Below, in pieces: positions 9,041-48,126 of a DNA stretch of 64,000 nucleotides (position 1 is its first letter; each line of letters starts with the position of its first letter). The stretch is from positions 1 to 64,000 of the forward strand of contig JAAYAH010000222.1 of the NCBI GenBank assembly GCA_012719445.1, given 5' to 3'. The position numbers and the translations under genes were made by a program. The notes under the pieces were generated by a model that was not told where the DNA came from, did not search any database, and saw only the letters and a list, made by a program, of their open reading frames with translations. This DNA is from Actinomycetales bacterium (GTDB lineage: Bacteria > Actinomycetota > Actinomycetes > Actinomycetales > Kineosporiaceae).

Positions 9041-9062
9041 GTCCGACATGGAGGTGTCGGAC
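9041..9062. terminator. Hairpin downstream of RNase HI
   Basis: GTCCGACA and TGTCGGAC form an 8-bp stem with a 6-nt loop, 70 bp past the rnhA stop and before the PilZ gene. It could end rnhA transcription or act in the leader of the c-di-GMP genes. Confidence 0.35.
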
Positions 9063-9875: not shown

Positions 9876-10002
9876 CCGCCGGCGCGTGACACGGCGATCA
9901 CCGGCGGGGGCGGCCGTACAGTTCTGGGGTGGCCGCAGGATTCAGTCGGGCCCTCTTCCGTCCGATCTTCCCCGTAGAGGACGAGAAGTCGAGGGAGGCC
10001 GA

Positions 10003-13000: not shown

Positions 13001-13449
13001 TGCGGACGACGGGGACGCCGGCCGAGTGGCTGACCCTGGAGATCACCGAGGGCGTGGTCATGGGCAACGCCGACCAGGCCAGCCGGATCCTCGAGGACCT
13101 GCACCGGCGGGGTCTGCACCTGCACATCGACGACTTCGGGACCGGCTACTCGTCGCTGGAGGCCCTGCACCGGTTCCCGATCCACGCCCTGAAGATCGAC
13201 CGGTCGTTCGTCGCCCGGCTGCAGGACGAGCACTCCAGCAGGGAGCTGGTGCGGACCATCGCCTCCATGGGCCGGAACCTCGGGGTCGACGTCATCGCCG
13301 AGGGCGTGGAGAGCTCCCGGCACCAGGAGATCCTGCTGGAGCTGGGCTGCCCCTACGCACAGGGCTACTGGTTCGCCCGGCCGTCGAGCGCGACCGCGCT
13401 GGAGGACTACCTGAGGGCTGGGTCGGTCTCGGACGTTCCGGTGACCTGA
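10003..13449 (+). CDS. LacI-type sensor / PAS / GGDEF / EAL c-di-GMP enzyme
   Basis: 1148 residues from GTG 10003, four bases after GAGGGAGG. Residues 1-285 are a periplasmic-binding-protein fold of the LacI/PurR type (PTIGVLTPLGAGPFFGF, HGHRRIAFAG, GFDDTEASL), ending in a C-x-C motif, without the LacI DNA-binding head, signal peptide or membrane segment, so the protein is cytoplasmic. A helical and GAF-like region (285-580) leads to PAS (582-705). GGDEF (705-870) has an intact RLGGDEF motif and an RxxD inhibitory site (RSTD) five residues before it. EAL (892-1140) keeps LEALVRW, LEITEG, DDFGTGYSS, KID and AEGVES. Both synthesis and hydrolysis of c-di-GMP are possible, set by a sugar-like ligand. 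It follows the PilZ gene and shares its first two regions with the protein at 38707. Confidence 0.9.
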   Translation: MRRPTIGVLTPLGAGPFFGFALVGVAAAAHKAGARTLVVQTVDARVGDAHMDVPDFHVPVGWDHVDGFVVVSNGVGAEYLHRIRAAGKPVVIMCNEVEGFPCPTVWPDNASGIREAVLHLVEHGHRRIAFAGNVANKDFRERRDEYLDALRETGIDPDDTLYYDTAGYIDSDGVDVGRRMLAESLPSTAIVAGNDQLAFGIMSALTDAGRSIPGDQAVVGFDDTEASLVVQLSTVTQHVDQIGAAAAELVLRMLDGEDVPQQAHRLPTTLVPRRTCGCASLGVTPLAGAAVKEPREMFRDVLAPAFATTPEGTRVVDDLVDVFDSAVRATDDDVHPAVRDDEALSAAVYRLYALHPRAESIEVVTAAAQAYRRGLERYPGPSGTARVVDPVALEPAERLLVTTLAQAMSKRALDMAARLQMMLRHGFDISLELLRRHSDGSESLEWLARTNVRVGVVGLWRDDTGTLDLVNGFGQDTTVLDRGEPVSPVAFPPRFVLDAATTETDVTFCLPLRTWTHDWGFLSVAGPVETDTPTGRETYFQWAALLGMALDQKATFQSLRDQQEELAAAILRERRLVEDIRQSEERYALAADSANDGLWDWDLLADEFYYAPRWKKLLGYPNEAIGRSPDEWFSRVNSEDLPVLRAAVEASRVKCVPLENEHRMLAKDGTYRWMLTRALAVPGEDGEAVRLVGSMTDVTERRELEDRLRHQAMYDALTGLPNRTVFFDRLDRAIAYLGRRPELGFAVLFLDLDGFKVVNDSLGHPTGDLLLVRVAERLSHHLRSTDTAARLGGDEFAILLQDVREMTDVLQTVRRLQMHLCEPYDLKGHRVVVSASIGIATSASDYLHAEEILRDADIAMYRAKTNERGGYAIFDPSMHEGAVNRLRVESELRRAIDRRELEAHYQPIVCLGSGRVFGLEALVRWRHPERGLVPPGDFLPVAEETGLVVPLGRRMLADVCDDLNRWKSAGLLSEAARASVNVSNREFWQGDLLEHLDRTLRTTGTPAEWLTLEITEGVVMGNADQASRILEDLHRRGLHLHIDDFGTGYSSLEALHRFPIHALKIDRSFVARLQDEHSSRELVRTIASMGRNLGVDVIAEGVESSRHQEILLELGCPYAQGYWFARPSSATALEDYLRAGSVSDVPVT

Positions 13450-30820: not shown

Positions 30821-32272
30821 ATGAACCGGATCCGCGGAATCGTCGGATCGTCGGCGGTGGCAGCCGGATCGACGGCCAGGGCGGCCGGATCGGCGGCCAC
30901 GACAGCCGGTCCGACGGCGGGGGCAGCCGGTGACGCGAGGCCGTTGCGGTGGCCGCTCCTCGCCGCCCTCGCCCTGATCAACGCGGTGAACCCGTTGTCG
31001 ATCGACGTGTTCCTCGCGGCCTTCCCGACGATGGCCCGTGAGCTGCACACCACTCCGGCGACGGTGCAGCTCACGCTGACCACCTACCTGATCGGCATGG
31101 CCTGCGGGCAGTTCGTCATCGGTCCGGTCTCCGACAGCCTGGGACGGCGACGTCCTCTGGTCATCGGCACCCTCGGCTGTCTCGCGGCGAGCGTCGCCTG
31201 CGCCCTTGCCCCCACGATCGGGCTGCTGGTCGCGGCCAGGTGCGTGCAGGGCTTCGCCGCGGCCGCGGGCGTGGTGACCGCTCGCGCCGTCATCGCCGAT
31301 CTCACCGGTGACGAGCAGACGGCCCGGGTGATGAACCTCATGATGATCATCATGGCCGTCGCCCCGATCGTCGGCCCGGTGCTCGGGGGCGTCGTCTTCA
31401 CCGCCCTCGGCTGGCGGGCGGTGCTGTGGTCGGTGGCTCTCGCGGTGGCCGTCATGGCCGCGGGGGCGCTGCTGGTGGTGCCGGAGTCCCTTCCCCCGTC
31501 CCGGCGGCACGGCGGTGGGCTCGTCCAGTTGGTCTCCGGGATGCGGGCCGTCGTCACCGACCGGGTCTACCTGGGGTACATGCTCACCGCCGTGCTCGGC
31601 TTCGGGACGCTGTTCGCCTACATCTCCAGTTCCTCCTTCGTCGTCCAGGAGGTGCTGGGGCTCGGTCCGAGGGCGTTCACGCTGGTCTTCGGGGCCAACG
31701 CCCTGGCGACCACGCTGGTCTCCGCCATGTCGATGCGGCTGGTCGGCCGGGTGCGGACGCGGAGGCTGCTCGGCGTCGGGGTGACCTGGTCGGTGCTGGG
31801 CTGCCTGGTCCTCACGCTGCTCGTCCTGGTCGCCGGAGCGCCCGTCGTCCCGGTGCTCGTCGCGTTCCCGCTCACCCTCGCCGCGCTCGGGCTGGTGATG
31901 GGGAACGCGACGGCGTTGGCGATCAGCAGGGTCCGCGCCAACGCGGGCTCCGGCTCCGCCGTGCTCGGCACCCTGCAGTTCACAGTGGCCGGCGCGGTCT
32001 CGTCGGCGGCTGGGCTCGGCGACGGCGCGTCCGGGATGGCCGTCGTGATGCTGTCCTGTGCCTGCCTGTCCGCCCTGTCCTTCGCCGTGGTCACCCGGGA
32101 ACGGGGGCTGCGGCAGACCGCAACCGGCGGACGATCTCCGGTGCGGGGACCGGCAGGGAGAACAGGAAGCCCTGCACCAGCCGGCACCCCAGGTCACCCG
32201 GGGCGGCCGCGCCCTGCTCGGTCTCGACCCCCTCGGCGATCACCGGGACGTCGAACAACGACCCCATTGTGA
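30821..32272 (+). CDS. MFS transporter of the Bcr/CflA drug-efflux group, 3' end altered
   Basis: 483 residues from ATG 30821. After a low-complexity Ala/Gly N-terminus (about 40 residues) come twelve hydrophobic segments with PLSIDVFLAAFPTMARELHT and GPVSDSLGRRRPLVIG, hallmarks of Bcr/CflA proton-driven exporters. The transporter fold ends near FAVVTRERG (about residue 430). The last 50 residues are Pro/Arg-rich and are read through an opposite-strand EAL-domain remnant (32091-32276), so the native stop was probably lost. Just upstream GTACCGACGTCC occurs twice (30769-30780 and 30787-30798), 18 bp apart, which may be an operator. Confidence 0.87.
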   Translation: MNRIRGIVGSSAVAAGSTARAAGSAATTAGPTAGAAGDARPLRWPLLAALALINAVNPLSIDVFLAAFPTMARELHTTPATVQLTLTTYLIGMACGQFVIGPVSDSLGRRRPLVIGTLGCLAASVACALAPTIGLLVAARCVQGFAAAAGVVTARAVIADLTGDEQTARVMNLMMIIMAVAPIVGPVLGGVVFTALGWRAVLWSVALAVAVMAAGALLVVPESLPPSRRHGGGLVQLVSGMRAVVTDRVYLGYMLTAVLGFGTLFAYISSSSFVVQEVLGLGPRAFTLVFGANALATTLVSAMSMRLVGRVRTRRLLGVGVTWSVLGCLVLTLLVLVAGAPVVPVLVAFPLTLAALGLVMGNATALAISRVRANAGSGSAVLGTLQFTVAGAVSSAAGLGDGASGMAVVMLSCACLSALSFAVVTRERGLRQTATGGRSPVRGPAGRTGSPAPAGTPGHPGRPRPARSRPPRRSPGRRTTTPL

Positions 32273-32276
32273 TCAT
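32091..32276 (-). pseudogene. C-terminal remnant of an EAL-domain c-di-GMP phosphodiesterase
   Basis: 61 codons read VPVIAEGVETEQGAAAPGDL and CRLVQGFLFSLPVPAPEIVR, matching the end of EAL domains (VAEGVET...LGC...QGY.F..P). The catalytic EAL, DDFG and KxD parts are missing, so it cannot work. It overlaps the 3' end of the transporter gene in the opposite direction. It shows that another c-di-GMP enzyme once lay between the transporter and the sugar operon. Confidence 0.75.
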
Positions 32277-32688
32277 GAGCCGGACCGGTTCCCGGGTCCG
32301 TCGCGAGTCTGGTCGTGGCGTTCATCGGTCCCGGTTCCCCGGTAGCTGCCGACGAGGGTGATGGCGGTGTGGTCGTTTCCCACGGGGGGCAGGGGAGTGG
32401 TCCCGGCGCGTTCCACGCCTCTGCCGGGCGTGTCCCCGCTGCACTCACAGTAGTGCGATGTCACTGCGAGTAACGTGACCGGCGTCTGTGATGCCGAGGG
32501 GGTACGGGTCGTCGCATCAGTCTCGCTGTCGTCGCAGTCCCTGGGAGGGGCTGTCCGAGCCGGTGAGGGCGGAGGGAAGGACGGCTGTGGGGCATCCGTG
32601 TTCCTCGTGACGCCGTTCACCGGACGGACGGTGCGTGTCCCTCGGGCTCACCGGACCGCGTCGTCCTCGAGAAACGGGAGATCGGGAA
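32277..32688. promoter_or_regulatory. 412-bp promoter region of the sugar-uptake operon, with a palindrome
   Basis: No gene is seen. GCACT-CACAGT-AGTGC (32441-32456) is a perfect 5-6-5 inverted repeat in an AT-richer stretch, about 235 bp before the binding-protein start. It could be an operator for the importer operon. A second half-like CACTGC lies at 32462. No LacI or CebR consensus is recognised. Confidence 0.4.
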
Positions 32689-33987
32689 ATGGTGGGATCC
32701 AGGCGCATCCTGGTGCTGGTGAGCGCGGCCTGTGTCGTGGCTCTCTCGGCGTGCGGCGGGGCCGAGGGCTCCGATGGGGACTCGAACGGGTCCGGTGGCA
32801 AGCAGGTCACCCTCACCTGGTGGCACAACGGCAACAACGATCCCCTGAAGGGGTTCTGGCAGCGCATGGCCGACGAGTACCACGCGGCGCATCCGGATGT
32901 CGCGATCAAGGTGAGCGCCATGCAGAACGAGGATCTCAAGACGAAACTGCCCGTCGCGATGCAGTCCGACGACCCACCCGACGTCTACCAGGCGTGGGGC
33001 GGGGGGCAGTTGGCGACCCAGGTCCAGGCGGGGAAGGCCAGGGACCTCACCGAGGCCGTCCAGCCCTGGATCGGCGAGCTGGGGGCCGTCACCTCCGGAT
33101 GGCAGGTCGCGGGCAAGCAGTACGGCATTCCCTACAGCTTCGGCATCGTGGGCTTCTGGTACGACAAGTCCCTCTTCGCCAAGGCCGGGATCACCGCTCC
33201 GCCGTCGACCTTCGACGAACTGCTCGCCGCGATCGGTGCGCTGAAGGCCGCGGGCATCACCCCGATCTCCATCGGCGGGAAGGACAAGTGGCCCGACGCC
33301 TTCTGGTGGGAGTACTTCGCCGTCCGCGCCTGCAGCCGGGAGACCCTCGAGAAGTCGGCCGTCGACTACGACTTCACCGATCCCTGCTGGGTGACCGCGG
33401 GTGTGAACAACCAACGGCTCCTGGACGCGCAGCCGTTCCAGAAGGGATTCCTGGCCGCCCCGGCGCAGCAGGGTGCCGGGAGCTCGGCGGCCCTGGTCGC
33501 CAACGGCAAGGCGGCCATGGAACTGCAGGGGCACTGGAACCCCGGGGTCATGGCGGGGTTGACCACGAAGAAGGACGCCCTGGCGAAGAACCTCGGCTGG
33601 TTCCCGTTCCCGTCCGTCGACGGCGGGCTCGGTGCCCCGGACGCCGCCCTCGGCGGTGGTGACGGGTTCGCCTGCTCCGCGACGGCTCCGCCGCAGTGCG
33701 CCGACTTCCTCCGGTTCCTCGTCACCGTCGACCACCAGAAGGAGTACGGCGCCCTGGGGGTCGGCCTTCCCGTGACGAAGGGATCGGAGGGCTCGGTGAC
33801 CGATCCCGTGCTCAAGGACCTGCTCACGTTCCGGTCCGAGGCGTCGCTCGTCCAGACCTACTTCGACGTCCAGTACGTCACCAGCGTCGGTGAGGCCGTG
33901 AACGACGCGATCGCCCGGCAGTTCGCCGGGGACGCCTCGCCGCAGCAGGTCGTGGAGCTGATCTCGGACGCCGCCAAGGACCGGTGA
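32689..33987 (+). CDS. Sugar ABC transporter substrate-binding lipoprotein
   Basis: 432 residues from ATG 32689 after GGGAGATCGGG. The signal ends in lipobox LSAC with Cys22. The mature protein shows the family 1 binding fold: VTLTWWHNGNNDPLKGFWQ, PDVYQAWGGGQLATQV, GKQYGIPYSFGIVGFWYDK, GKAAMELQGHWN. Such proteins catch mono- or oligosaccharides outside the membrane for CUT1-type importers. Two permease genes follow with a GTGA overlap, then a GH3 glycosidase, so a beta-linked oligosaccharide is the likely cargo. No ATPase gene is in the operon; actinomycetes usually share an MsiK-type ATPase encoded elsewhere. Confidence 0.93.
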   Translation: MVGSRRILVLVSAACVVALSACGGAEGSDGDSNGSGGKQVTLTWWHNGNNDPLKGFWQRMADEYHAAHPDVAIKVSAMQNEDLKTKLPVAMQSDDPPDVYQAWGGGQLATQVQAGKARDLTEAVQPWIGELGAVTSGWQVAGKQYGIPYSFGIVGFWYDKSLFAKAGITAPPSTFDELLAAIGALKAAGITPISIGGKDKWPDAFWWEYFAVRACSRETLEKSAVDYDFTDPCWVTAGVNNQRLLDAQPFQKGFLAAPAQQGAGSSAALVANGKAAMELQGHWNPGVMAGLTTKKDALAKNLGWFPFPSVDGGLGAPDAALGGGDGFACSATAPPQCADFLRFLVTVDHQKEYGALGVGLPVTKGSEGSVTDPVLKDLLTFRSEASLVQTYFDVQYVTSVGEAVNDAIARQFAGDASPQQVVELISDAAKDR

Positions 33988-34952
33988 GGGTGCCCACGGG
34001 GACGATGACGGACGGCGGGCTCTCCGGAACGTCGGGGACCGGGGCCCGCCTCCGTCGCCGTCCCGGTCGGCGGATGCAGGTCGCAGCCCTCCTGGCACCG
34101 GCCATGCTGCTGTACCTGGTCTTCGTCCTGGTCCCGGTGGGGCTCGCGGCCTGGTACAGCCTCTTCAAGTGGAACGGGATCGGCCCGCTGGAGGAGTTCG
34201 TCGGTCTCGGCAACTACCGGCGGGCCCTGGGGGACGACGTCTTCCGCGGCGCGGTCCTGCACAACGCGATCTTCGTGGTGCTCTCGCTGGTGGTGCAGTT
34301 CCCGCTGACGCTCGGGCTCGCCCTGCTGCTGGACCGGAGGATCCCCGGACGGCCCGTGCTCCGGCTCGTCCTCTTCACCCCGTACGTGCTGTCCGAGGTC
34401 ATCACCGCGATCGCCTGGCTGCTCATCCTCCAGCCGGACGGACTCCTCGACGCGGCGCTCGACGCCCTCGGTCTCGGCGGGCTGATCCGCCTGTGGCTCG
34501 CGGACCAGGACCTCGTGCTCTACACCCTGTTCGGGGTGGCCACCTGGAAGTACCTGGGGTTCGGCATCATCCTCTTCCTCGCCGGTCTGCGGAACGTGCC
34601 GGAGGAGGTGAAGGAGGCCGCCACCCTCGACGGGGCCTCGGCCGGCCAGATCGTCCGGCACGTCACCGTGCCCCTGCTGGGACCGACCATCCGGATCTGG
34701 GCCTTCCTGTCGGTCATCGGCTCGCTGCAGCTCTTCGACCTCGTGTGGATCATGACGGAGGGCGGTCCGTCGAACGCCTCCACCACCATGGCGACCTATC
34801 TCATCGATCACGGCTTCCAGCGGTACGAGTTCGGCTTCGGCAGCGCGGCGGCCACCCTGCTCTTCCTGATCTCGTTCGTCGTCGCACTGGCCTACCAGCG
34901 GTGGGTGCTGCGTCGGGATCTCATCGGTGTCCCGGCCGGACGGGTGGGGTAG
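33984..34952 (+). CDS. Sugar ABC transporter permease (first)
   Basis: 322 residues; GTG 33984 overlaps the stop of the binding-protein gene (other possible starts are 33990 and 34005). Six membrane segments, starting with LLAPAMLLYLVFVLVPVGLA, and the coupling-loop motif EEVKEAATLDGASAGQIVRH (EAA...G), which docks the shared ATPase. Typical WYSLFKWNG after helix 1 places it in the MalF/UgpA-like group of CUT1 importers. Confidence 0.93.
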   Translation: MRVPTGTMTDGGLSGTSGTGARLRRRPGRRMQVAALLAPAMLLYLVFVLVPVGLAAWYSLFKWNGIGPLEEFVGLGNYRRALGDDVFRGAVLHNAIFVVLSLVVQFPLTLGLALLLDRRIPGRPVLRLVLFTPYVLSEVITAIAWLLILQPDGLLDAALDALGLGGLIRLWLADQDLVLYTLFGVATWKYLGFGIILFLAGLRNVPEEVKEAATLDGASAGQIVRHVTVPLLGPTIRIWAFLSVIGSLQLFDLVWIMTEGGPSNASTTMATYLIDHGFQRYEFGFGSAAATLLFLISFVVALAYQRWVLRRDLIGVPAGRVG

Positions 34953-34955
34953 GCC

Positions 34956-35912
34956 GTGGACGACGGCGCGCTCACCGACAGGCCGCCGACCGGCCCGTCG
35001 CCGGACTCCGTGCCCGACCCCTCCGCCGGGTCCCAGTCCCAGCTCGGGTCCCGGTCCCTGCCCTGGTCCGGACGCCGACGCCGACGCCGGCGCCGATCCG
35101 ACCCGGCCGCCGTCCCCGCGTTCGTCCTCGCCGTCGCCGTCGCCGCGTTGACGCTGGTCCCGGTGATCTACGTCGTCCTCGGCGGCTTCACGTCCACCGC
35201 CCAACTGGCGGAGGACCCCGTGGGGATGCCCGATCCGTGGATGACGGGCAACTACGGGTCGGTGCTGTCGTCGGCCCGGTTCTGGCGCCAGCTGGGGAAC
35301 AGCCTCCTCATCGCTCTCCTCGCCACGGGCCTCGTGGTGGCGGTGGGGTCGCTGGCCGCCTTCGCCGTCTCCCGGTACGTCTTCCGGGGGCGGGAGCTCG
35401 TCTACACCGTCTTCACCCTCGGGCTCCTCTTCCCCGTCGGGGTGGCGATCCTGCCGCTCTACCTCATGCTCCGGGAGCTCCACCTGCTGGACAACCCGCT
35501 CGGCGTCGCCGTCCCGCAGGCGGCGTTCAGCATCCCGGTCACCATCGTCGTCCTCCGGCCGTTCATGGCCGCCGTCCCGAACGAGCTCGAGGACGCCGCC
35601 GCCATCGACGGCTGTTCCGGGTTCGCCTTCTTCTGGCGCATCCTGCTCCCGCTGTCCAGGCCGGCGTTGACCACCGTGTCGGTGCTGGCCTTCGTCACCA
35701 GCTGGAACGCCTACCTGCTGCCGCTGCTCGTCCTCAACGACGAACAGCAGCACACCCTGCCGCTGGGCACGGCGATGTTCAGCACCCAGTACACCCAGGA
35801 CACCGCTCGGGTCCTCGCCTTCACGGCGCTGTCCATGGTTCCCGCGCTGGTGTTCTTCGTCCTCGCCGAACGCCGCATCGTCGGCGGTCTCACCGGGGCG
35901 GTCAAGGGATGA
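34956..35912 (+). CDS. Sugar ABC transporter permease (second)
   Basis: 318 residues from GTG 34956, three bases after the stop of the first permease gene. About 50 Ser/Pro/Arg-rich residues precede the first membrane helix (AFVLAVAVAALTLVPVIYVV, quoted). Then come six segments, YVFRGRELVYTVF, and the coupling motif ELEDAAAIDGCSGFAFFW. It belongs to the MalG/UgpE-like group and completes the translocation pore. The GH3 gene starts 50 bases downstream. Confidence 0.93.
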   Translation: MDDGALTDRPPTGPSPDSVPDPSAGSQSQLGSRSLPWSGRRRRRRRRSDPAAVPAFVLAVAVAALTLVPVIYVVLGGFTSTAQLAEDPVGMPDPWMTGNYGSVLSSARFWRQLGNSLLIALLATGLVVAVGSLAAFAVSRYVFRGRELVYTVFTLGLLFPVGVAILPLYLMLRELHLLDNPLGVAVPQAAFSIPVTIVVLRPFMAAVPNELEDAAAIDGCSGFAFFWRILLPLSRPALTTVSVLAFVTSWNAYLLPLLVLNDEQQHTLPLGTAMFSTQYTQDTARVLAFTALSMVPALVFFVLAERRIVGGLTGAVKG

Positions 35913-35961
35913 CCCCTCCCGTCCCCGACATCCCGGTCCGTCCACGAGCTGAGGAGCCCCC

Positions 35962-38532
35962 ATGAGCGCCGAGTCCGGCCCCCGCGAAGCGACCCCGGGG
36001 ACGCGTCCGTGGCTCGACCCGATCCTCCCCGACGGCGAACGGGTGAGGCTGCTGGTCGACGCGATGACCCTGGACGAGAAGCTCGCCCAGCTCGGCAGCG
36101 TCTGGGGCGTCGTCGACGTCGACGCGGACGGCCGTGCCCGGGTGTCCCCCCGGGCGGACGACGAGGGCGGGACCGACCGCACCTTCGCGGAGCTCACCCG
36201 GCACGGCATCGGCCAGCTGACCCGGGTCTACGGCACCCGGCCCGTGGAGCCGCGCGACGGCGCCAGGGCCCTGGCCGCCGTCCAGCGGGACCTCAGGGCC
36301 AGGACCAGGCTGGGGATCCCCGCCATGGTCCACGAGGAGTGCCTCTCCGGTCTCATCGCCTTTCGGGCCGCCGCCTTCCCGACCCCGCTGGCCTGGGCGG
36401 CGTCCTTCGACCCCGCGACGATCGAACAGACGGCCGCGGCCATCGGTCACGACCTGCGAGCCCTCGGCGTCCATCAGGGGCTCGCACCCGTCGTGGACGT
36501 GGTCCGTGACGCCCGGTGGGGGAGGGTGGAGGAGACCCTCGGCGAGGACCCGTACCTGGCCGGGGTGCTCGCCGCCGCCTACGTCCGCGGCCTCGAGAGC
36601 GCGGGCGTCGTCGCCACCCTGAAGCACTTCGCCGGGTACTCGGCGTCCCGTGCCGGGCGGAACCTCGCCCCGGTGAGCATGGGGCCGAGGGAGTTCGCCG
36701 ACGTCGTCCTGCCGCCGTTCGAGCACGCCCTGCGGGCGGGGGCGCGCTCGGTAATGCACGCCTACACCGCGGTCGACGGTCTGCCGGCCGCGGCGGACCA
36801 GCACCTCCTGACCACGGTTCTCCGGGAGGAGCTGGGGTTCCGGGGCGTCGTCGTCGCCGACTACTTCGGCATCACCTTCCTGGAGACCCACCACCGGGTG
36901 GCGTCCTCCCCGGGGGACGCCGCGGCGCAGGCGTTGACGGCCGGGGTCGACGTGGAGCTGCCGACCACCCGGTGTTACGGCGAGCCGCTCGCGGAACGGG
37001 TCCAGGCAGGGGACGTCGCCGAGGAGCTCGTCGATCGTGCCGTCACCCGGGTGCTCCGGCAGAAGGTCGAGCTCGGCCTGCTCGACCGCGGCTGGGACCC
37101 GGAATCGCCAGTGCTCCGCGCCGCGCGGGGGGAGACGCTCCCGACCGCGGGGGAGGACGCCCTGCCGGTCGCGGGGGAGGACGCCCTGCCGGTCGCGGGG
37201 GAGCTGGACTCCCCGGCGCACCGGGTGCTGGCCCGGCGGCTCGCCGAACGGTCCGTGATCCTGCTCGCGAACGTCGGCGAGGCGCTCCCGCTGACACCGG
37301 GGCTGAGCCGCCTGGCGGTGGTCGGCCCGTGCGCGGACGATCCGTCGACGCTGCTCGGTGCCTACTCCTTCGTCAACCACGTGGGCCCCCACCACCCGGG
37401 GACGGGATCGGGCATCGCGATCCCCACGGTGCTCGACGCGCTGCGTGCGGACCTGCCGGACACCCTGATCGAGTACGCGCGCGGCTGTGACGTCGACGGC
37501 ACCGATCGTTCGGGCTTCGACGAGGCGGTACGGATCGCCGCAGGGGCGGGGCTCTGCCTCGTCGTACTCGGCGACCAGGCCGGTCTGTTCGGCGGGGGTA
37601 CCTCGGGGGAGGGGTGCGACGTCGGGGACCTCACCCTGCCCGGGGTACAGGGTGAGCTGCTGGAGGTCCTGCTCGGCACCGGGGTGCCCGTCGTCCTCGT
37701 GACGATCTCCGGCCGCCCCTACGCCGTCGGTGCCTGGAACGACCGGCTGGCCGCCCACCTGCAGGCCTTCTTCCCCGGCGAGGAGGGCGGCCGGGCCGTC
37801 GCGGCGGTGCTCAGCGGCCGGATCGCGCCCTCGGGCCGGTTGCCGGTGCAGATCCCGCGGCACCCCGGCGGCCAGCCGGCCACCTACCTGCACGCCCCCC
37901 TCGGCGACCTGAGCGGGGTCAGCTCCGCGGATCCGACCCCGGTGTTCCCCTTCGGCCACGGTCTGACCTACACCACCTTCGCCTACGGCGACCTGCAGGC
38001 CGACGACCGCTCGATCGGCACCGACGGCGAGACGGTCCTCCGGTGCACGGTGACCAATACCGGGTCCCGCCGGGGCACCGAGGTGGTCCAGCTCTACCTC
38101 TCCGTCCCGGTCGCGGCGGAGGTGACCCGGCCCGTCCGCCAGCTCATCGGTTTCGCGAGAGTGACCCTCGACCCCGGTCACCTGGCGCAGCTCGCCTTCA
38201 CCGTCCACGCCGACCGGACCGCCTGCACCGGGCGTGACCTGCGCCGGACCGTGACGCCGGGCCGGGTCGAACTGCTCGTGGGGCCGTCCTCGGCCGTCCT
38301 CCCGCTGCGCGTGTATCTCGACCTCGTCGGTGACGTCCGGGAGGTCGGCTCCGACCGGGTTCTCGTCACCCCGGTACGGGTCACCGCGCGGCGATCTGTC
38401 CCGATCCCCGCCCCGCGAACGGGGGAGGACGCGGTGACGGCGCCGGGTACGGCGGTGGCGGGGGATCCCCCTGAGGAGACCGTGCTGCGGGCGACCCCGC
38501 CGGGCACGCCCTCGGACCGCGCGTCCGGGTGA
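35962..38532 (+). CDS. GH3 beta-glycosidase (cytoplasmic)
   Basis: 856 residues from ATG 35962. GH3 N-domain (about 20-330): MVHEECLSGLIAFRA, RVEETLGEDPYLAG, TLKHFAGYSASRAGRN, and the nucleophile Asp in VVVADYFGI (near 299). The C-domain (about 415-625) has ERSVILLANVGEALPL and GSGIAIPT; a fibronectin-like domain (about 660-760) begins FPFGHGLTYTTFAYG. No signal peptide, so it acts on imported oligosaccharides. A triplicated octapeptide (TAGEDALP, VAGEDALP, VAGEL) lies near residues 393-416. The GH3 family covers beta-glucosidase and beta-xylosidase; which one cannot be told. It follows the importer genes as one operon. Confidence 0.93.
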   Translation: MSAESGPREATPGTRPWLDPILPDGERVRLLVDAMTLDEKLAQLGSVWGVVDVDADGRARVSPRADDEGGTDRTFAELTRHGIGQLTRVYGTRPVEPRDGARALAAVQRDLRARTRLGIPAMVHEECLSGLIAFRAAAFPTPLAWAASFDPATIEQTAAAIGHDLRALGVHQGLAPVVDVVRDARWGRVEETLGEDPYLAGVLAAAYVRGLESAGVVATLKHFAGYSASRAGRNLAPVSMGPREFADVVLPPFEHALRAGARSVMHAYTAVDGLPAAADQHLLTTVLREELGFRGVVVADYFGITFLETHHRVASSPGDAAAQALTAGVDVELPTTRCYGEPLAERVQAGDVAEELVDRAVTRVLRQKVELGLLDRGWDPESPVLRAARGETLPTAGEDALPVAGEDALPVAGELDSPAHRVLARRLAERSVILLANVGEALPLTPGLSRLAVVGPCADDPSTLLGAYSFVNHVGPHHPGTGSGIAIPTVLDALRADLPDTLIEYARGCDVDGTDRSGFDEAVRIAAGAGLCLVVLGDQAGLFGGGTSGEGCDVGDLTLPGVQGELLEVLLGTGVPVVLVTISGRPYAVGAWNDRLAAHLQAFFPGEEGGRAVAAVLSGRIAPSGRLPVQIPRHPGGQPATYLHAPLGDLSGVSSADPTPVFPFGHGLTYTTFAYGDLQADDRSIGTDGETVLRCTVTNTGSRRGTEVVQLYLSVPVAAEVTRPVRQLIGFARVTLDPGHLAQLAFTVHADRTACTGRDLRRTVTPGRVELLVGPSSAVLPLRVYLDLVGDVREVGSDRVLVTPVRVTARRSVPIPAPRTGEDAVTAPGTAVAGDPPEETVLRATPPGTPSDRASG
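37138..37209 (+). repeat. Three tandem 24-bp units inside the GH3 gene
   Basis: Units at 37138-37161, 37162-37185 and 37186-37209 encode near-identical octapeptides of the form LPVAGEDA in the linker between the two GH3 domains. In-frame expansion by slippage is the simplest explanation. Confidence 0.8.
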
Positions 38533-38706
38533 CGGACAGGCGGGTCCCGGAGTCCCCGTTCCCGGTCCGATCCGTGCCGCGCACGGAGCCGAGGCGAAGC
38601 ATCCGTTCGGTGGACACGGTTCAGGCGCCGACGGCGCGCAGCCGACAACTATATGTCGCCGAGCGTCAGTGCTGTCGCTGGTCGGGATCGGCTGAGGGAG
38701 GGGCGT

Positions 38707-40899
38707 GTGCGGTCCGATCCGCCCATCATCGCCGTCTTGTCGCCCTTCGTCGGCGGTCCGTACTACGGCGAGCTGCTGAACGGTGTCTGCCGGGGGGTGC
38801 GCCGAACCGGCAGGCGCGTCCTCGTCGTGCAGACCCTGGACGCCGGCTCCTTCCGGGCCGAGGCACACACGACGCCGGATCGTCTGCTCCCGGTGGCACA
38901 CCATCACGCCGACGGGTTCATCGTGCCGGTCGGTGCCGTCGGGGACGGGCACCTCGAGCTACTCCGAGCCACCGGCAAGGACATCGTGCTGGTCGGTTAC
39001 CAGGCCGACGGGCTGCCCTCGGTCCGGGCGGACAACGCCGTGGGCGTCTCCTCGGCGGTCGCTCACCTGATCGAGCACGGCCACAGCCGGATCGCCTTCG
39101 TCGGGCATCGGGCGACGCCGGACGTCGACGAGCGGTACCAGGGGTACCTCCGGGCCCTGCGAGCACACCGCATCGAGCCGGATCCCGCCCTGGTGTACGA
39201 CACCGAGGACGATCTGGAGGATGGGGGCGAGGCTGCAGCAGACGCCGTGATCCGGGACGGGCTGCCCCCGACGGCCACGGTGTGCGGGACGGATCTCAAC
39301 GCGATCGGGTTCATGCGGGTGCTGCGCCGGCGGGGGTACCGGCTACCGGACGATCAGGCGGTGGTCGGGTTCGACGACATCGATCGGGCGGCCTTCCAGG
39401 TGCCGAGCCTGGCGACGGTCGCGCAGCACACGGACGCCATGGGGGTCGCCGCAGCCGAGCTGCTGGACCGGCGACTCCTGGGCGACCGCGGAGAGGTCGA
39501 GCAGGTGCGGGTGCCGACGTCGTTCATCCCGCGAGCGTCCTGTGCGTGTCCGGCCGGCGGTGCGTCTGCTGTCGGCCAGGCCTCCCCCCTCACGCCCCGG
39601 GAGGCCCTGACAGCGCGACTGGCCGCCCTGATCCCGCCCGCCAGCGGCGACCACGGGACGGGTGCCCGGGTGGTCCCGGAACTCGTCGACGAGATCACCC
39701 GGGCCGTGCTCGCCTCGCGGGACGGCGTCCCGCCGCCGTCGCCGGAGTCACTGCTGACCGCGTTCCGGTCGCTGTGCGGGATCCGCCGCCAGCCGGGGAC
39801 GCTGCGCCTGGCCAGCGAGGCTGTCCAGGAGTTCGCCGACGACGTCGCACCCGTCGGCGGCACCCCGGCACCCGCGCTGCGCCGGGTCGCCTCGACGGTC
39901 CGCGACCTGACCGTGCTGATGGCGCGCGCCCAGGACGAGCTGATCTTCCAGAGCCGACGTGATCTCGGCAACGCGGTCAGCACGCACTACGAGGTCACGA
40001 TGGACCTTTTCCACAGTCCGGACGAGGACCCCCGGACGCTGCGCTGGATGCGCCACACTCCCGCCCGCGGTGGATGCCTCGGACTGTGGGCGGAGGGCCA
40101 GCAGCCCTGGTCACGAGACGTCCTCGACATCGTCGGGGTGTACAGCCCGGACGGCGCGGTTCCCGTGCCGCGGGAGGCGACGACCGTCGCGGGGTTCCCG
40201 CCGATCGAAGTGATCGAGATGGCGGAGGACCAGGACGACGTCGTCCTCGTCGTCCCGGCCAAGGTCAACCTGAGCGACTGGGGGCTGCTGACCTTCGTCG
40301 GACCCCTGCAGACCAGGATCGAGAACGGCAGGGAGAGCCTCTACCAGTGCACGGCCCTGCTCACGGTGGCTCTGGACCTCAGGTCCAAGGAGAGCCAGTT
40401 GCGCAGGGCTGCGCTCTACGACGATCTGACCGGACTGGCCAACCGCACCCTGTTCATGGAGCAACTGCAACGCACGGTGCTCAGGGCCGAACGCCACCCC
40501 GACTACCGGTTCGCGGTGCTGTTCCTGGACCTGGACGGCTTCAAGAAGATCAACGACACCCTGGGACACACGGCAGGCGACGAGGTCCTCGTCGAGGTGG
40601 CCCGGCGGATCACCGAGTCGGTCCGCCGGAACGACCTGGTGGGCAGGTTCGGCGGAGACGAGTTCCTGGTGCTCCTGGACGGCCTGGTCACCCCGGAGAG
40701 CACGGACGAGGTGGCCGCCCGGTTCCGGGAGGCGATGCTGCACCCGATCACAGCGGGCGGCCACGCCATCCGGGTCCGGGTGAGCGTCGGTGTCTGGACC
40801 AGTGCGGACGGGCTCTGCTCGGCGGAGGAGGTGCTCCGGCACGCTGACAACGCGATGTACCGCGCCAAGAGCGCACGCGACGAGTCCCTCGTCCGGTGA
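38707..40899 (+). CDS. LacI-type sensor / GGDEF diguanylate cyclase
   Basis: 730 residues from GTG 38707, after GAGGGAGGGG. Residues 1-280 are a LacI/PurR-type binding fold (PIIAVLSPFVGGPYYGELL, HGHSRIAFVGH, VVGFDDIDRAAFQ) ending in a C-x-C motif, without DNA-binding head, signal peptide or membrane helix. A middle helical and GAF-like region (280-560) resembles that of the protein at 10003. GGDEF (565-725) has DLTGLANR, LDLDGFKKIND, the intact FGGDEF motif near 648 and an RxxD inhibitory site (RRND) five residues before it. It lacks PAS and EAL. It should make c-di-GMP in response to a ligand, probably a sugar, as it follows the importer/GH3 operon by 174 bp. CGACA-ACTATA-TGTCG (38643-38658) upstream may be its promoter or operator. 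Confidence 0.9.
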   Translation: MRSDPPIIAVLSPFVGGPYYGELLNGVCRGVRRTGRRVLVVQTLDAGSFRAEAHTTPDRLLPVAHHHADGFIVPVGAVGDGHLELLRATGKDIVLVGYQADGLPSVRADNAVGVSSAVAHLIEHGHSRIAFVGHRATPDVDERYQGYLRALRAHRIEPDPALVYDTEDDLEDGGEAAADAVIRDGLPPTATVCGTDLNAIGFMRVLRRRGYRLPDDQAVVGFDDIDRAAFQVPSLATVAQHTDAMGVAAAELLDRRLLGDRGEVEQVRVPTSFIPRASCACPAGGASAVGQASPLTPREALTARLAALIPPASGDHGTGARVVPELVDEITRAVLASRDGVPPPSPESLLTAFRSLCGIRRQPGTLRLASEAVQEFADDVAPVGGTPAPALRRVASTVRDLTVLMARAQDELIFQSRRDLGNAVSTHYEVTMDLFHSPDEDPRTLRWMRHTPARGGCLGLWAEGQQPWSRDVLDIVGVYSPDGAVPVPREATTVAGFPPIEVIEMAEDQDDVVLVVPAKVNLSDWGLLTFVGPLQTRIENGRESLYQCTALLTVALDLRSKESQLRRAALYDDLTGLANRTLFMEQLQRTVLRAERHPDYRFAVLFLDLDGFKKINDTLGHTAGDEVLVEVARRITESVRRNDLVGRFGGDEFLVLLDGLVTPESTDEVAARFREAMLHPITAGGHAIRVRVSVGVWTSADGLCSAEEVLRHADNAMYRAKSARDESLVR

Positions 40900-40949
40900 C
40901 GGTGCACGTCACTATTCCACTCGGGTGTCCAGGGCGAACATGACTGCCG

Positions 40950-41186
40950 GTGCGTCGTCGAACAGTCACGCACCGTACCGATCTGTTGTACATCAGTATT
41001 CGGTTCTCTCCCGACTCTGGTCTTCCCGATTCCGGGCTCCTGAACCTTTTCTACGCGCACAGCCCAGAAGCAGAGATCGCCTGGTACGAAGAAGGCTTCG
41101 GGTACGCGGAGTTCCACGCCTCGCCTGAAGGGCTTGCCCCCAGACGCCACCCCGAGATGTCCACTTCGGAGCACGTGCGGGAGTGA
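40950..41186 (+). CDS. Hypothetical protein
   Basis: A 78-codon frame from GTG 40950 in DNA of lower GC than its neighbours. The second half (FYAHSPEAEIAWYEEGFGYA) looks protein-like, with aromatic and acidic residues and balanced codons; the N-terminus is less convincing. Its stop overlaps the next frame (GTGA). It may be part of an older mobile element next to the att site. No family recognised. Confidence 0.35.
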   Translation: MRRRTVTHRTDLLYISIRFSPDSGLPDSGLLNLFYAHSPEAEIAWYEEGFGYAEFHASPEGLAPRRHPEMSTSEHVRE

Positions 41187-41488
41187 GGCTTGTCCCGACA
41201 CTCGATCTGCCTCACGACGAGTATCAACTCGCGAACATCCCGTCGGCCGCAGAACTTCTGAAGGACTTCGAAGCACTCTCTGACGACTACCGCTGTCTTC
41301 GGGATTCGCTCCACGTCGCCAAGGACTACCTGCTCGGCCTCCCCTCTCATCGCATGCTCGCCTACGACCCCACGCCCGGACCGGAGTTGATGCCGCCCCG
41401 GCCGATGCCCTGCTCCCAGTCGTGGCGCCCGCCGTCTCGCTCAACTCGTCGACGTCGTCGCCCGGGGATCGTCAGTCACCGGTGGTGA
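41183..41488 (+). CDS. Hypothetical protein, possibly truncated
   Basis: A 101-codon frame from GTG 41183, coupled to the previous frame. The first 70 residues (LPHDEYQLANIPSAAELLKD, DYRCLRDSLHVAKDYL) look like a genuine helical protein; the last 30 are Arg/Ser/Pro-rich and look out of frame, so the true 3' end may be lost. The mixed codon use differs from the chromosomal genes to the left. Likely a leftover of a mobile element. Confidence 0.35.
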   Translation: MRLVPTLDLPHDEYQLANIPSAAELLKDFEALSDDYRCLRDSLHVAKDYLLGLPSHRMLAYDPTPGPELMPPRPMPCSQSWRPPSRSTRRRRRPGIVSHRW

Positions 41489-41578
41489 CGATCCCTCTTC
41501 CCGGACCCGACAGCCGCACAGTCATGGATATCCATGAGTCGGCACAAGTCGCGATCGTGGCCGAGCGTCTCGAACTGA

Positions 41579-43387: not shown

Positions 43388-45049
43388 ATGAGTGCCTGGT
43401 CCGCAGGGGCGGTCTTCCTCGTCTCCCTGGTGGCGGCCCTGGTCGTGGTCTATCGGCCGATGGGTGACTACGTGTACAGGGTCGTCTCCTCGCCGAGGCA
43501 TCTGCGGGTGGAGCGGTCGCTCTACCGGGTGATGGGGGTCGACCCGGACGGTGAGCAGCCATGGGGTGGGTACGCCCGCTCTGTCCTGGCGTTCTCCGCG
43601 GTCTCGATCCTGTTCCTGTACGCGTTCATGCGGCTGCAGAACCGGCTGTGGCTGTCTCTCGGGTTGCCTGCGGTGAAGCCGGACGGGGCGTGGAACACCG
43701 CGGTGAGCTTCGTCACGAACACGAACTGGCAGTGGTATTCGGGGGAGTCCACGATGGGCCATCTCGTGCAGATGGCGGGGTTGGCCGTGCAGAACTTCGC
43801 CTCCGCCGCTGTCGGTATCGCGGTCGCCGTGGCGTTCGCGCGGGGCTTCGCCCGGAGCAGGACGGCGCAGTTGGGCAACTTCTGGGTCGACCTGGTGCGG
43901 GTCGTGCTGCGGGTCCTGCTCCCGATCTCCGTTCTCGTCGCGATCGTGTTCGTCGCGGCCGGCATGGTGCAGAACCTCTCGGCGGGCACGGACGTGCACA
44001 CCCTGGCCGGGGCGACTCAGCACCTCACGGGTGGCCCGGTGGCCAGCCAGGAGGCCATCAAGGAGCTGGGGACCAACGGCGGCGGCTTCTACAACGCCAA
44101 CAGTGCTCACCCGTTCGAGAACCCGACGTCCTGGACGAACTGGATCGAGGTCTTCCTGCTGCTGCTCATCCCGTTCTCCCTGCCACGCACGTTCGGCCGG
44201 ATCGTCGACGACAACCGGCAGGGGTATGCGATCGCCGCGGCGATGGCCGTGCTGGCCCTGGGCAGCCTGGTGACGATCAACGTGCTGCAGGGTGTCCACG
44301 GGGGAACGGTGCCGCAGGCCGTGGGAGCCGCGAGCGAGGGAGTGGAGACCCGGTTCGGGGTCTTCGATTCGGCGACCTTCGCCTCGGCCACGACGCTGAC
44401 CTCGACGGGGTCGGTGAACTCCTTCCACGACTCCTACACCGCCCTGGGCGGCGGGGTGACGATCGTCGACATGATGCTCGGCGAGGTCGCACCGGGCGGG
44501 ACCGGCTCGGGACTGTACGGGATGCTCGTCCTGGCCGTGATCACCGTGTTCGTCGCCGGGCTCATGGTCGGGCGGACCCCGGAGTACCTCGGGAAGAAGA
44601 TCGGCGCCAGGGAGGTGAAGCTCGCCTCGCTGTACTTCCTGACCACCCCGCTGCTCGTGCTGACCGGTGCCGGGATCGCGATGGCCCTGCCCGGTGAACG
44701 GGCGGCGATGCTCAACCGCGGGCCCCACGGCCTCTCGGAGGTGCTCTACGCCTTCACCTCCGCGGCCAACAACAACGGCTCGGCCTTCGCCGGGCTGGGC
44801 GTGAACACCACCTGGTACGACAGCGCTCTCGGCCTGGCCATGCTGCTCGGCCGGTTCGTCCCCGTGGTCCTCGTCCTCGGCCTGGCCGGGTCGCTGGCCG
44901 CACAGAAGCCGGTGCCGGCCTCGGCCGGAACGCTGCAGACCCACCGTCCGCTGTTCGTCGCCATGCTCGTCGGGGTCACGGTGATCCTCGTGGCGCTGAC
45001 CTTCCTGCCCGCCCTGGCTCTCGGGCCGCTCGCCGAGGGGGTGCGCTGA
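43388..45049 (+). CDS. kdpA: KdpA, potassium-binding channel subunit
   Basis: 553 residues from ATG 43388, full length (usual about 557). Ten membrane segments with four pore-loop regions; typical words are [45 protein letters not shown] (selectivity loop) and [14 protein letters not shown]-like [15 protein letters not shown]. KdpA picks up K+ from outside with high affinity and passes it to KdpB. Three bases separate it from kdpB. Confidence 0.98.
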
Positions 45050-45052
45050 GCG

Positions 45053-47245
45053 ATGACGGCCGCCCTCGCCCACGAACCGTCCGCCGGCCGTGAACCGTCC
45101 ACCAGCGCCGCCGGCCCCGGACCGCACCGGATCTCCGGCGGCCTGCTGGAGCCCCGGCAACTCCTGGCCTCGCTCCCGGGGGCCGTGCGAAAGCTCGGCC
45201 CCCGGACCCTGTGGCGCAACCCGGTCATGTTCATCGTCGAGATCGGCGCGATCTTCACCACGGTCCTGGCCGTCACCGACCCCTCGGTGTTCGCCTGGTC
45301 GATCACCGTGTGGCTGTGGCTGACCGTGGTGTTCGCCAACCTCGCCGAGGCCGTGGCCGAGGGCCGGGGCAAGGCACAGGCGGACACCCTGCGCCGGGCC
45401 AAGAAGGACACCGTGGCCAGGCGGCTGCCCGGCTGGAGTCCCGGCACGACCGCCCGGGAGGCCCTGGGCCGGGTGGAGACCGTTCCCGCGTCGCAGCTGC
45501 GCCAGGGGGACGTCGTCGTGGTCGAGGCCGGCGAGATCATCCCCGGGGACGGCGACGTCGTCGAGGGGATCGCCAGCGTCGACGAGTCCGCGATCACCGG
45601 GGAGTCCGCGCCGGTGATCCGGGAGTCCGGGGGCGACCGCAGCGCGGTCACCGGCGGCACGAAGGTGCTCTCGGACCGGATCATCGTGCGGATCACCCAG
45701 AGGCCGGGGGAGAGCTTCATCGACCGGATGATCGCCCTCGTCGAGGGAGCGAACCGGCAGAAGACCCCCAACGAGATCGCGTTGAACATCCTGCTCGCCG
45801 CGTTGACGATCATCTTCCTGCTGGCGGTGGCGACCCTGCAGCCGCTGGCGATCTACTCCAAGCGCGTCCAGGCCTTCGCCCCCGACTCCCTCGCCCTGAA
45901 CGGCAACGGCGTCACCGGCATCGTGCTGGTGTCCCTGCTGGTGTGCCTGATCCCGACCACGATCGGGGCGCTGCTGTCGGCGATCGGGATCGCGGGGATG
46001 GACCGGCTGGTCCAGCGCAACGTGCTGGCCATGAGCGGACGGGCGGTGGAGGCCGCGGGGGACGTGAACACCCTGTTGCTGGACAAGACCGGGACCATCA
46101 CGTTGGGCAACCGACAGGCCAGCGAGTTCGTCCCGCTCGGCGGTGTCACCGAGCTGGAGCTGGCCGACGCCGCGCAGCTGTCCAGCCTGGCCGACGAGAC
46201 CCCGGAGGGCCGCTCCGTGGTCGTGCTGGCCAAGCAGCGGCACGGGCTGCGGGAACGCACTCCGGGGGAGCTGGCCCGCGCCGAGTGGGTGGAGTTCACC
46301 GCGAAGACCCGGATGTCCGGGGTCGACCTGGGCGAGGACGGCAGCGCCCGCAGGATCCGCAAGGGCGCGGCGACCGCCGTCATGACCTGGGTACGCGACC
46401 ACGGTGGGTACCCGCCGGGGGAGGTGGACTCGATCGTGGATGGGATCTCCGCCTCCGGTGGCACCCCGCTGCTCGTCGCGGAACACCCCGCCGGGCAGCC
46501 GGCCCGGGTGCTCGGGGTCATCCAGCTCAAGGACGTCGTCAAGCAGGGCATGCGCGAGCGGTTCGAGGAGATGCGCCGGATGGGCATCCGCACCGTGATG
46601 ATCACCGGGGACAATCCGCTGACCGCACGGGCGATCGCCGCCGAGGCCGGCGTCGACGACGTCCTCGCCGAGGCCACCCCCGAGGACAAGCTCGCCCTGA
46701 TCAAGCGGGAGCAGGCCGGCGGCAGGCTGGTGGCGATGACCGGGGACGGCACCAACGACGCCCCGGCCCTGGCCCAGGCCGACGTCGGGGTCGCCATGAA
46801 CACCGGCACCTCCGCGGCGAAGGAGGCCGGCAACATGGTCGATCTGGACTCCGACCCGACCAAGCTCATCGAGATCGTGGAGATCGGCAAGCAGCTGCTC
46901 ATCACCAGGGGAGCGTTGACCACGTTCTCCATCGCCAACGACATCGCGAAGTACTTCGCGATCATCCCGGCCATGTTCGCCGCGGTCTACCCGGGCCTGG
47001 GCAGGCTCAACGTCATGGGCCTGCACAGCCCGACCTCGGCGATCCTGTCCGCGGTGGTCTTCAACGCGCTGGTCATCGTGGCGCTGATCCCGCTGGCCCT
47101 GCGCGGGGTGCGTTACCGCCCCGCCAGCGCCGCGGCGATGCTGCGCCGCAACCTGTGGATCTACGGCGCCGGGGGCATCGTCGCCCCGTTCCTCGGCATC
47201 AAGCTCGTCGACCTCCTCGTCCAGTTCGTCCCCGGGATCTCCTGA
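45053..47245 (+). CDS. kdpB: KdpB, P-type ATPase subunit
   Basis: 730 residues from ATG 45053. The phosphorylated Asp is D344 in [13 protein letters not shown]; the actuator loop reads [12 protein letters not shown]; the nucleotide domain has KGA and the hinge [18 protein letters not shown]. Membrane segment 4 carries the family [15 protein letters not shown] motif. KdpB drives K+ uptake by ATP hydrolysis with KdpA and KdpC. The N-terminal 30 residues are an Ala/Ser/Pro-rich tail. Its stop overlaps the kdpC start (TGATG). Confidence 0.98.
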
Positions 47246-48126
47246 TGCGTCTGCCCCCCTGGCTCGCCCAGCACCTCGCCGCCCTGCGGACCCTGCTCGT
47301 GCTCACCGTGATCGCCGGGATCGCCTACCCGCTGGCGGTCACCGCGATCGCCCAACTGCACGGGTTGCGACACCACGCGAACGGATCCCTGGTCACCGTC
47401 GACCACACCGTGGTGGCCAGCTCGCTCATCGGCCAGTCGTTCACCGACACCGGGGGGAAGCCCCTCCTCCGGTACGTCCAGACCCGGCCCTCCGCCGCGG
47501 GCGCCGGATACGACCCCACCGCCACCGGGGCGTCCAACTTCGGCCCGGAGAGCGTCGTCGACACCCTTCCCGGACCCGCCGACCCCACCGGTGAGCAGAG
47601 TCTGCTCACCCGGGTGTGCGCCCGCAGCCTGGCGGTCGGCCGGTTGGAGGGCGTGGACGGCGCCCGGCCCTACTGCACCCCGGACGGCGTCGGTGCCGTT
47701 CTCGGCGTCTTCCACCGCGACGGGGTCACCGGAGGCGTGACCCGGGTGGTCAGCCTCAACCAGGCCTGCCCCGCCGCCCCGTTCCTGACCACCTATCGGG
47801 GTGTGCGGGTGGAGTGCGCCCGCCCCGGCCAGGACTACTCCCATGCCGTCGTCACACCCATCCGGGGAGACGCCCCCGCACACCCCGCCGTCCCGCCCGA
47901 CGCGGTCACCGCCAGCGGCAGTGGTCTCGACCCTGCGATCAGCCCCGCCTACGCCCGGCTCCAGGCACCCCGGGTGGCCAGGGCCCGCGGGATCGACGTG
48001 ACGACGGTGGACCGGCTCATCACCGCGCACACCACGCGGCGGGCGCTCGGCTTCCTCGGCGAGCCCTCGGTCAACGTCGTCACGCTCAACACCGACCTCG
48101 ATCGGAGGTACCCCGTCCCCGGATGA
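47245..48126 (+). CDS. kdpC: KdpC, potassium-transporting ATPase subunit with a long insertion
   Basis: 293 residues from ATG 47245 (usual about 190-200). The N-terminal helix (LAALRTLLVLTVIAGIAYPL) and GSLVTVDHTVVASSLIGQSF, YVQTRPSAAGAGYDPTATGAS and the end GLDPAISPAYARLQAPRVAR plus LGFLGEPSVNVVTLNTDL are standard KdpC. An extra segment of about 90 residues (roughly 115-205) separates them and brings four Cys, which on the outer face could form disulfides. KdpC stabilises the complex and aids ATP binding. Confidence 0.95.
   Translation: MRLPPWLAQHLAALRTLLVLTVIAGIAYPLAVTAIAQLHGLRHHANGSLVTVDHTVVASSLIGQSFTDTGGKPLLRYVQTRPSAAGAGYDPTATGASNFGPESVVDTLPGPADPTGEQSLLTRVCARSLAVGRLEGVDGARPYCTPDGVGAVLGVFHRDGVTGGVTRVVSLNQACPAAPFLTTYRGVRVECARPGQDYSHAVVTPIRGDAPAHPAVPPDAVTASGSGLDPAISPAYARLQAPRVARARGIDVTTVDRLITAHTTRRALGFLGEPSVNVVTLNTDLDRRYPVPG

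Follow-up and report, generated by a model that had tools for sequence, protein, structure and literature searches.

Whether the position of a diguanylate cyclase gene behind a sugar importer tells which sugar the enzyme senses is the question raised by the window, the whole 64,000-nucleotide stretch of DNA that was analysed. The first-pass annotation placed a sugar-sensor diguanylate cyclase at 38707-40899 (+), directly after an importer and GH3 operon, and Pfam confirmed both parts: a LacI-type Peripla_BP domain and a GGDEF domain were found in the protein, and SBP_bac_1, two BPD_transp_1 and GH3 matches lie upstream on the same strand. The cyclase open reading frame spans 38653-40899 (+), with the GTG at 38707 as its likely start, directly 5' of which stands a strong ribosome-binding sequence, GAGGGAGGGG; none was found upstream of the ATG at 38653. 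From this GTG the gene encodes 730 amino acids, in which sequence, Pfam and model together delimit a LacI-fold sensor, a helical bundle, a GAF-like domain and a GGDEF domain.

Pfam matches to the cyclase were Peripla_BP_3 (1.3e-33), Peripla_BP_1 (2.4e-18) and GGDEF (2e-44, 151.6 bits against a cut-off of 23.8), with no match to EAL, PAS or the LacI helix-turn-helix. The middle region matched no Pfam family at E 0.01, GAF included. Neither a signal peptide nor a transmembrane helix was found, the maximum 19-residue hydropathy mean being 1.34, inside the GAF-like core. With the DNA-binding, membrane and export parts all missing, the sensor is therefore predicted to be cytoplasmic.

An AlphaFold model built from 22 homologues (mean pLDDT 85.8) shows a Venus-flytrap sugar-sensor domain at residues 1-281 (38707-39549, Pfam and VIA-align), helices at 297-435 (39595-40011), a beta-rich domain at about 430-540 (39994-40326), a helix at 541-570 and GGDEF at 574-730, the last placed at 40411-40878 by Pfam and alignment. 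Absences from the Foldseek and VIA-align lists were given no weight. The sensor superposed on CcpA (2jcg, Z 26.4, rmsd 2.5, 265 aligned) and on CelR with cellobiose (5ysz, Z 25.7, rmsd 3.2, 263 aligned), and RbsR with ribose was also among the sugar-bound LacI-family structures matching its fold. The C-terminal domain matched GGDEF structures at Z of about 25; the active site and the RRND I-site (RxxD, in RRNDLVGRFGGDEF), 5 residues ahead of it, are both intact, and the product is predicted from its signature to be an active diguanylate cyclase. Modelled alone, the middle region reached a pLDDT of 91.3 and aligned by VIA-align to GAF domains at Z 10.1-11.1 over 111-133 residues. Its listed structural matches were overwhelmingly GAF (phytochromes, ptsP, DevS, NLH2, CodY); the best Foldseek E-value was only 5.9e-3, and the domain is therefore described as a divergent GAF.

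Six sensor residues, D139, R143, D196, D223, C279 and C281, did not vary in 47 of 47 aligned homologues. R143 and D223 presumably fall where LacI-family regulators such as LacI and PurR hold their sugar, and alignments show the pairing of the arginine and of the FDD/YDN stretch with those regulators. The two cysteines sit at the flytrap end in an RxSCxC motif (residues 276-281, 39532-39549), likewise present in all 47.

A first paralogue at 9985-13449 (+) carries, by Pfam and alignment, the same sensor and GAF-like middle followed by PAS, GGDEF and EAL. That the second protein shares this sensor and middle and has GGDEF alone is correct in the sense of homology, with identities of 27-45% (sensor 44%, middle 27%, GGDEF 45%). 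A palindrome, CGACA-N6-TGTCG, lies at 38643-38658 in the gap ahead of the cyclase gene, and a second copy at 9044-9059 is ahead of the first paralogue, so that each of the two copies in 64 kb (0.12 expected) stands just before a LacI-GGDEF locus. Because the other own-genome loci scanned were without it, the palindrome was dropped as a family site. The gene at 9139-9875, directly preceding the first paralogue, gave no Pfam match and contains the motifs RRMFCR and DLSEGG; we take it to be PilZ-like. Its reading frame shifts near a C run at about 9660, either by a sequencing error or by a real frameshift.

The operon upstream begins with an extracellular sugar-binding lipoprotein (32689-33987, +; SBP_bac_1, 4.6e-36; N-terminus MVGSRRILVLVSAACVVALSACGG), whose longest open reading frame runs from 32635 and whose likely start is the ATG at 32689. 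It is followed on the same strand by two ABC permeases (33984-34952, BPD_transp_1, 6.4e-11; 34956-35912, BPD_transp_1, 5.7e-18) and a GH3 glycosidase (35962-38532; Glyco_hydro_3, 4.5e-75). On the NCBIfam XyloArabinsidase model the glycosidase scored 1047 bits, just below the cut-off of 1050, and it showed no export signal or hydrophobic N-terminus. It is probably a cytoplasmic beta-xylosidase/alpha-arabinosidase, and the operon probably imports and splits xylan sugars. The gap between GH3 and the cyclase gene is 174 bp; since the remaining gaps range from an overlap to 49 bp, the cyclase gene may have a promoter of its own. No sign of a terminator or special RNA structure was seen ahead of the gene: no terminator-like site was found in 32000-41500, and the gap folded no better than shuffled sequences (z -0.33). 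A profile search detected no LacI helix-turn-helix anywhere on the contig, and the BxlR motif CGAANNTTTCG was not found at the operon. Beyond the cyclase, ion-transport genes occupy 43388-48126 of the window; these presumably resemble KdpA and KdpB.

Of 57 other genomes searched, 20 have relatives of the binding protein. Regions from 18 of the 20 were read (G016 and G017 left out), and G008, with a weak match and no GH3 match, was excluded to give 17 loci. Both permeases were present in all 17, the order binding protein-permease-permease-GH3 in 16, and a LacI-type gene adjoined the operon in 16; the helix-turn-helix was confirmed in all five adjoining genes scanned (two in G005, one each in G029, G007 and G055). 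A CGTTATCGATAACG-type palindrome stood upstream of the binding protein in 11 of the 17 loci, often as an overlapping double form (L148, L149, L150, L152, L153, L157, L159 and others). None was found upstream of the window's binding protein, and the relatives' operator, searched as the pattern CGWTAWCGWWAWCG, was not found in the whole window genome. The nearest repressor of the relatives' kind in that genome is at C63, fronting a GH3 paralogue of 65% identity; it is about 40% identical to most of the relatives' repressors and 54% identical to that of G005.

Conservation of the full order with the cyclase as its last member had been proposed as a check, and it failed: binding protein-permease-permease-GH3-GGDEF was found in the window only and in none of the 17 loci, and was rejected as a conserved unit. 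The first-pass annotation would have been refuted by this together with a sensor that binds nothing related to GH3 substrates, so that one half of its refuting condition has come true. A LacI-GGDEF cyclase occurred at the operon in one relative, G005 of the same family, the other 16 being without one. There the operon has two flanking LacI repressors with a LacI-GAF-GGDEF gene behind one of them, a placement with a chance of about 0.009 for one of G005's three such genes. Compared with the window's, the G005 cyclase lies on the other side of the operon, is divergent and has a shortened middle, with a sensor 41% identical. Trees paired the two proteins at 84/82 and 61/83, and the 47-row sensor plus GAF tree left the pairing unresolved; orthology of the two is thus a weakly supported reading of the sequences. 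In G009 the binding protein is preceded, at a distance of about 2.8 kb, by a partial GGDEF match with no LacI-type sensor. The window sensor was 29-40% identical to the relatives' operon LacI repressors and 33-45% identical to other cyclase sensors; the identity comparison gave no sign of descent from the operon's own repressor, though such an origin may still apply.

A profile search of the window's genome, which is 5.42 Mb long and 99.3% complete, gave 106 GGDEF matches, contig-end fragments included, and 76 Peripla_BP_3 matches compared with 8-47 in its family mates. With those fragments counted, the GGDEF number exceeds the range of 0 to 80 proteins per actinobacterial genome, highest in zoospore formers, given in the available part of a published survey (PMC10746217). 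For the counts that follow, the 5 weakest or partial GGDEF rows, 1 sub-cut-off Peripla_BP_3 row and 1 of 29 LacI helix-turn-helix rows were left out. Of 75 Peripla_BP_3 domains above cut-off, 40 share an open reading frame with GGDEF and 27 stand behind a LacI helix-turn-helix, after removal of the apparent fusion at C104 (797-residue gap), which lowered the fusions from 41 to 40. At that locus (L267:1582-3966) a LacI-fold sensor is joined to a histidine-kinase ATPase domain. An ABC permease lay within 5 kb of 3 of the 40 LacI-GGDEF fusions, 3 of the 61 other GGDEF genes and 9 of the 27 LacI repressors (fusions versus repressors, p = 0.0098; fusions versus other GGDEF genes, p = 0.68). From 3/40 versus 3/61, about two such permease neighbours are therefore expected by chance, and position next to an importer is by itself weak evidence.

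CxC classes were read from 59 of the 75 sensor ORFs of this genome. Among 39 fusions read there were two classes, RxSCxC (10) and those without CxC (29), and CxC was absent from all 11 LacI repressors read. Where they were scanned, the neighbours of other same-class members in the genome were unrelated genes, housekeeping genes or peptide-transport genes: a peptide transporter with MgtE, a TruB/FAD synthetase/PNPase group, a chorismate enzyme, a cation exporter, a hydantoinase, an Fe-S subunit, an integrase and a transposase. At C144 (L174, L172) a GH42 beta-galactosidase importer locus is flanked on one side by a LacI repressor gene and a LacI-GGDEF fusion from the other class, and on the opposite side by an RxSCxC sensor ORF that lies at the end of the contig and lacks an output.

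Another pattern appeared when 46 untruncated RxSCxC-class ORFs were compared with their flanks (2 truncated rows of 48 omitted). GGDEF was the sole recognised output, with PAS and EAL scored by short motifs, in 3 of the 46: the window protein and those of G005 and G449, which represent three genera and two families, G449 being from the other family. Each of the three has sugar-type permease matches at a distance of 2.8-4.5 kb, compared with 0 of 43 other members within the fetched flanks, which are short in some stretches (Fisher 6.6e-5, a post hoc test on related sequences). C144, one of the 43, is 6.9 kb from sugar permeases, beyond the flank examined. At the G449 locus a permease, a second permease, a binding protein, a LacI repressor, one further gene and the cyclase follow on one strand, with a divergent GH35 beta-galactosidase. 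In trees the G449 protein does not group with those of the window and G005, suggesting that the arrangement arose at least twice. The coincidence of short form and importer is a good lead, not proof. The claim that the location is meaningful thus stands only in part: with some 40 fusions in the genome, position alone was not significant, and the support comes from the coincidence of GGDEF-only members with sugar importers. A genome-contig search for relatives gave nearly all GGDEF-end-only matches and was left unused. The same class includes a large clade, mostly of family f9 (L183, L216, L218, L220, L221, L223, L225-L230, L232-L234, L237-L239), with the sensor, RxSCxC, the GAF-like domain and a PAS-like WDWD motif, and without the GGDEF signature.

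The explanation we favour, to which we give an even chance, is that a bxl-type xylo-oligosaccharide uptake operon ends here with a gene for a soluble diguanylate cyclase that responds to sugar in the cytoplasm, and that this enzyme reports the sugar coming in through that operon. The strongest competitor, which we hold to be unlikely yet worth serious weight, is that the cyclase is a chance neighbour, one of about 40 scattered LacI-type cyclases, sensing a cytoplasmic sugar or metabolite unrelated to the operon. Such a view would agree with the near-equal permease proximity of fusions and other GGDEF genes, with the lack of a conserved gene order and with pocket residues that are invariant across members in very different neighbourhoods. 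It accounts poorly for the related cyclase at the same operon in G005 and for the full coincidence of short form and importer (3/3 versus 0/43).

Control of the operon itself is a considerably less probable reading, under which the sugar-sensing cyclase would replace the lost LacI repressor and act through a c-di-GMP-binding regulator or by protein contact. The missing LacI helix-turn-helix on the contig, the absence of the relatives' operator from the whole genome and the location of the nearest repressor of their kind elsewhere, at C63, are all in keeping with it; however, G005 keeps two LacI repressors and has a cyclase nonetheless, and the distant LacI at C63 could control the operon. We give equally little credence to the invariant CxC at the sensor exit being the real switch, by metal or redox, with the sugar fold as scaffold or co-sensor: C279 and C281 are indeed constant in all 47 homologues, and CxC is missing from the 11 LacI repressors read and from 29 of 39 fusions read, but a structural role is as likely and the pocket positions are equally invariant.

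On the favoured reading, in which the cyclase reports the operon's incoming sugar, xylobiose, or a monosaccharide freed from it, would be imported by the binding protein and permeases and hydrolysed by GH3 in the cytoplasm. The LacI-type flytrap of a cyclase dimer, co-transcribed with the importer, would bind the incoming sugar and close, and closure would be relayed to the GGDEF dimer by way of the helical bundle, the GAF-like domain and the helix behind it; a shift of the helix-GAF-helix stem would set the GGDEF pair, a mechanism already inferred in other enzymes of the GAF-GGDEF type. Synthesis of c-di-GMP would thereby be changed, up or down, with product inhibition at the I-site limiting its level. 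Because short members accompany importers and the relatives keep a LacI sensor next to this operon, we consider it about as likely as not that the ligand is among the sugars which the operon handles. As the cyclase stands at an operon that in relatives has a LacI repressor, the sugar signal would here go to a second messenger. The output may be motility or development; the development proposed in the first-pass annotation was extrapolated from Streptomyces, and since flagellin genes are present in the window's genome, motility is at least as likely.

More tentatively, and with the balance of our judgement against it, the findings may fit a wider history, in which an RxSCxC LacI-fold lineage of flagellated actinomycetes was rewired from DNA binding to c-di-GMP. 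Short GGDEF-only members would have settled at sugar-import operons at least twice independently as counterparts of repressors, the window's operon would have lost its ancestral repressor and operator, and the cell would read imported sugars as c-di-GMP.

Nutrient control of c-di-GMP is largely open, and in the available text of a review of c-di-GMP sensing (PMC8846402) the LacI-like domain is named only as a possible sugar sensor. In the window one protein joins sensor and cyclase beside a transporter and a glycosidase that hint at its ligand, and ligand, enzyme effect and phenotype are thus directly testable; about 40 natural variants of the LacI-GGDEF design are available in one genome. It is plausible, and partly conserved, that sugar uptake is wired to a second messenger and not to a gene repressor. 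Among the titles and abstracts listed from an open-access library, no LacI-fold sugar-sensing diguanylate cyclase with a tested function was found; the combination of LacI-like and GGDEF domains, a c-di-GMP enzyme encoded in a sugar operon and the importer-GH3-LacI order were already known. This analysis adds the GAF-like middle, the RxSCxC motif without variation, the count of these proteins in a single genome, the tie between short form and importers, and the lack of both repressor and operator at the window's operon.

The review on c-di-GMP sensing, as far as its available text goes, lists Periplas_BP (LacI-like) plus GGDEF proteins among the input classes, with no function yet tested (PMC8846402). 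Its input and output domains are those of the window cyclase, which differs in being predicted cytoplasmic, in the helical bundle and GAF-like domain between them, in the invariant RxSCxC and in its place at an importer. The xylobiose operon bxlEFG-bxlA-bxlR of Streptomyces, with its LacI regulator, resembles the window in clustering a binding protein, two permeases, a GH3 enzyme (a beta-xylosidase there, probably one in the window) and a LacI-type ligand-binding protein, with bxlEFG-bxlA in the order seen in the window and in 16 of the 17 loci, according to the part of PMC12772271 available; in the window, by contrast, there is no LacI repressor or BxlR motif at the operon and a LacI-fold diguanylate cyclase follows GH3. 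In the maltase operon amlR-amlE-ACSP50_2473 of Actinoplanes SE50/110, from which its authors, in the available portion of PMC6828939, infer a coupling of sugar use to c-di-GMP, a c-di-GMP enzyme gene is likewise last in an actinomycete sugar-use operon. In that operon the LacI repressor is a protein of its own and the c-di-GMP enzyme is of the GGDEF-EAL type and carries a transmembrane helix, whereas in the window sensor and cyclase are one protein. The phytochrome-activated diguanylate cyclases 5llw and 5llx, to which model residues 421-730 align by VIA-align, share with the window cyclase the series of GAF-type sensor, helix and GGDEF; in place of their chromophore module, the window protein has a LacI-type sugar fold as its input.
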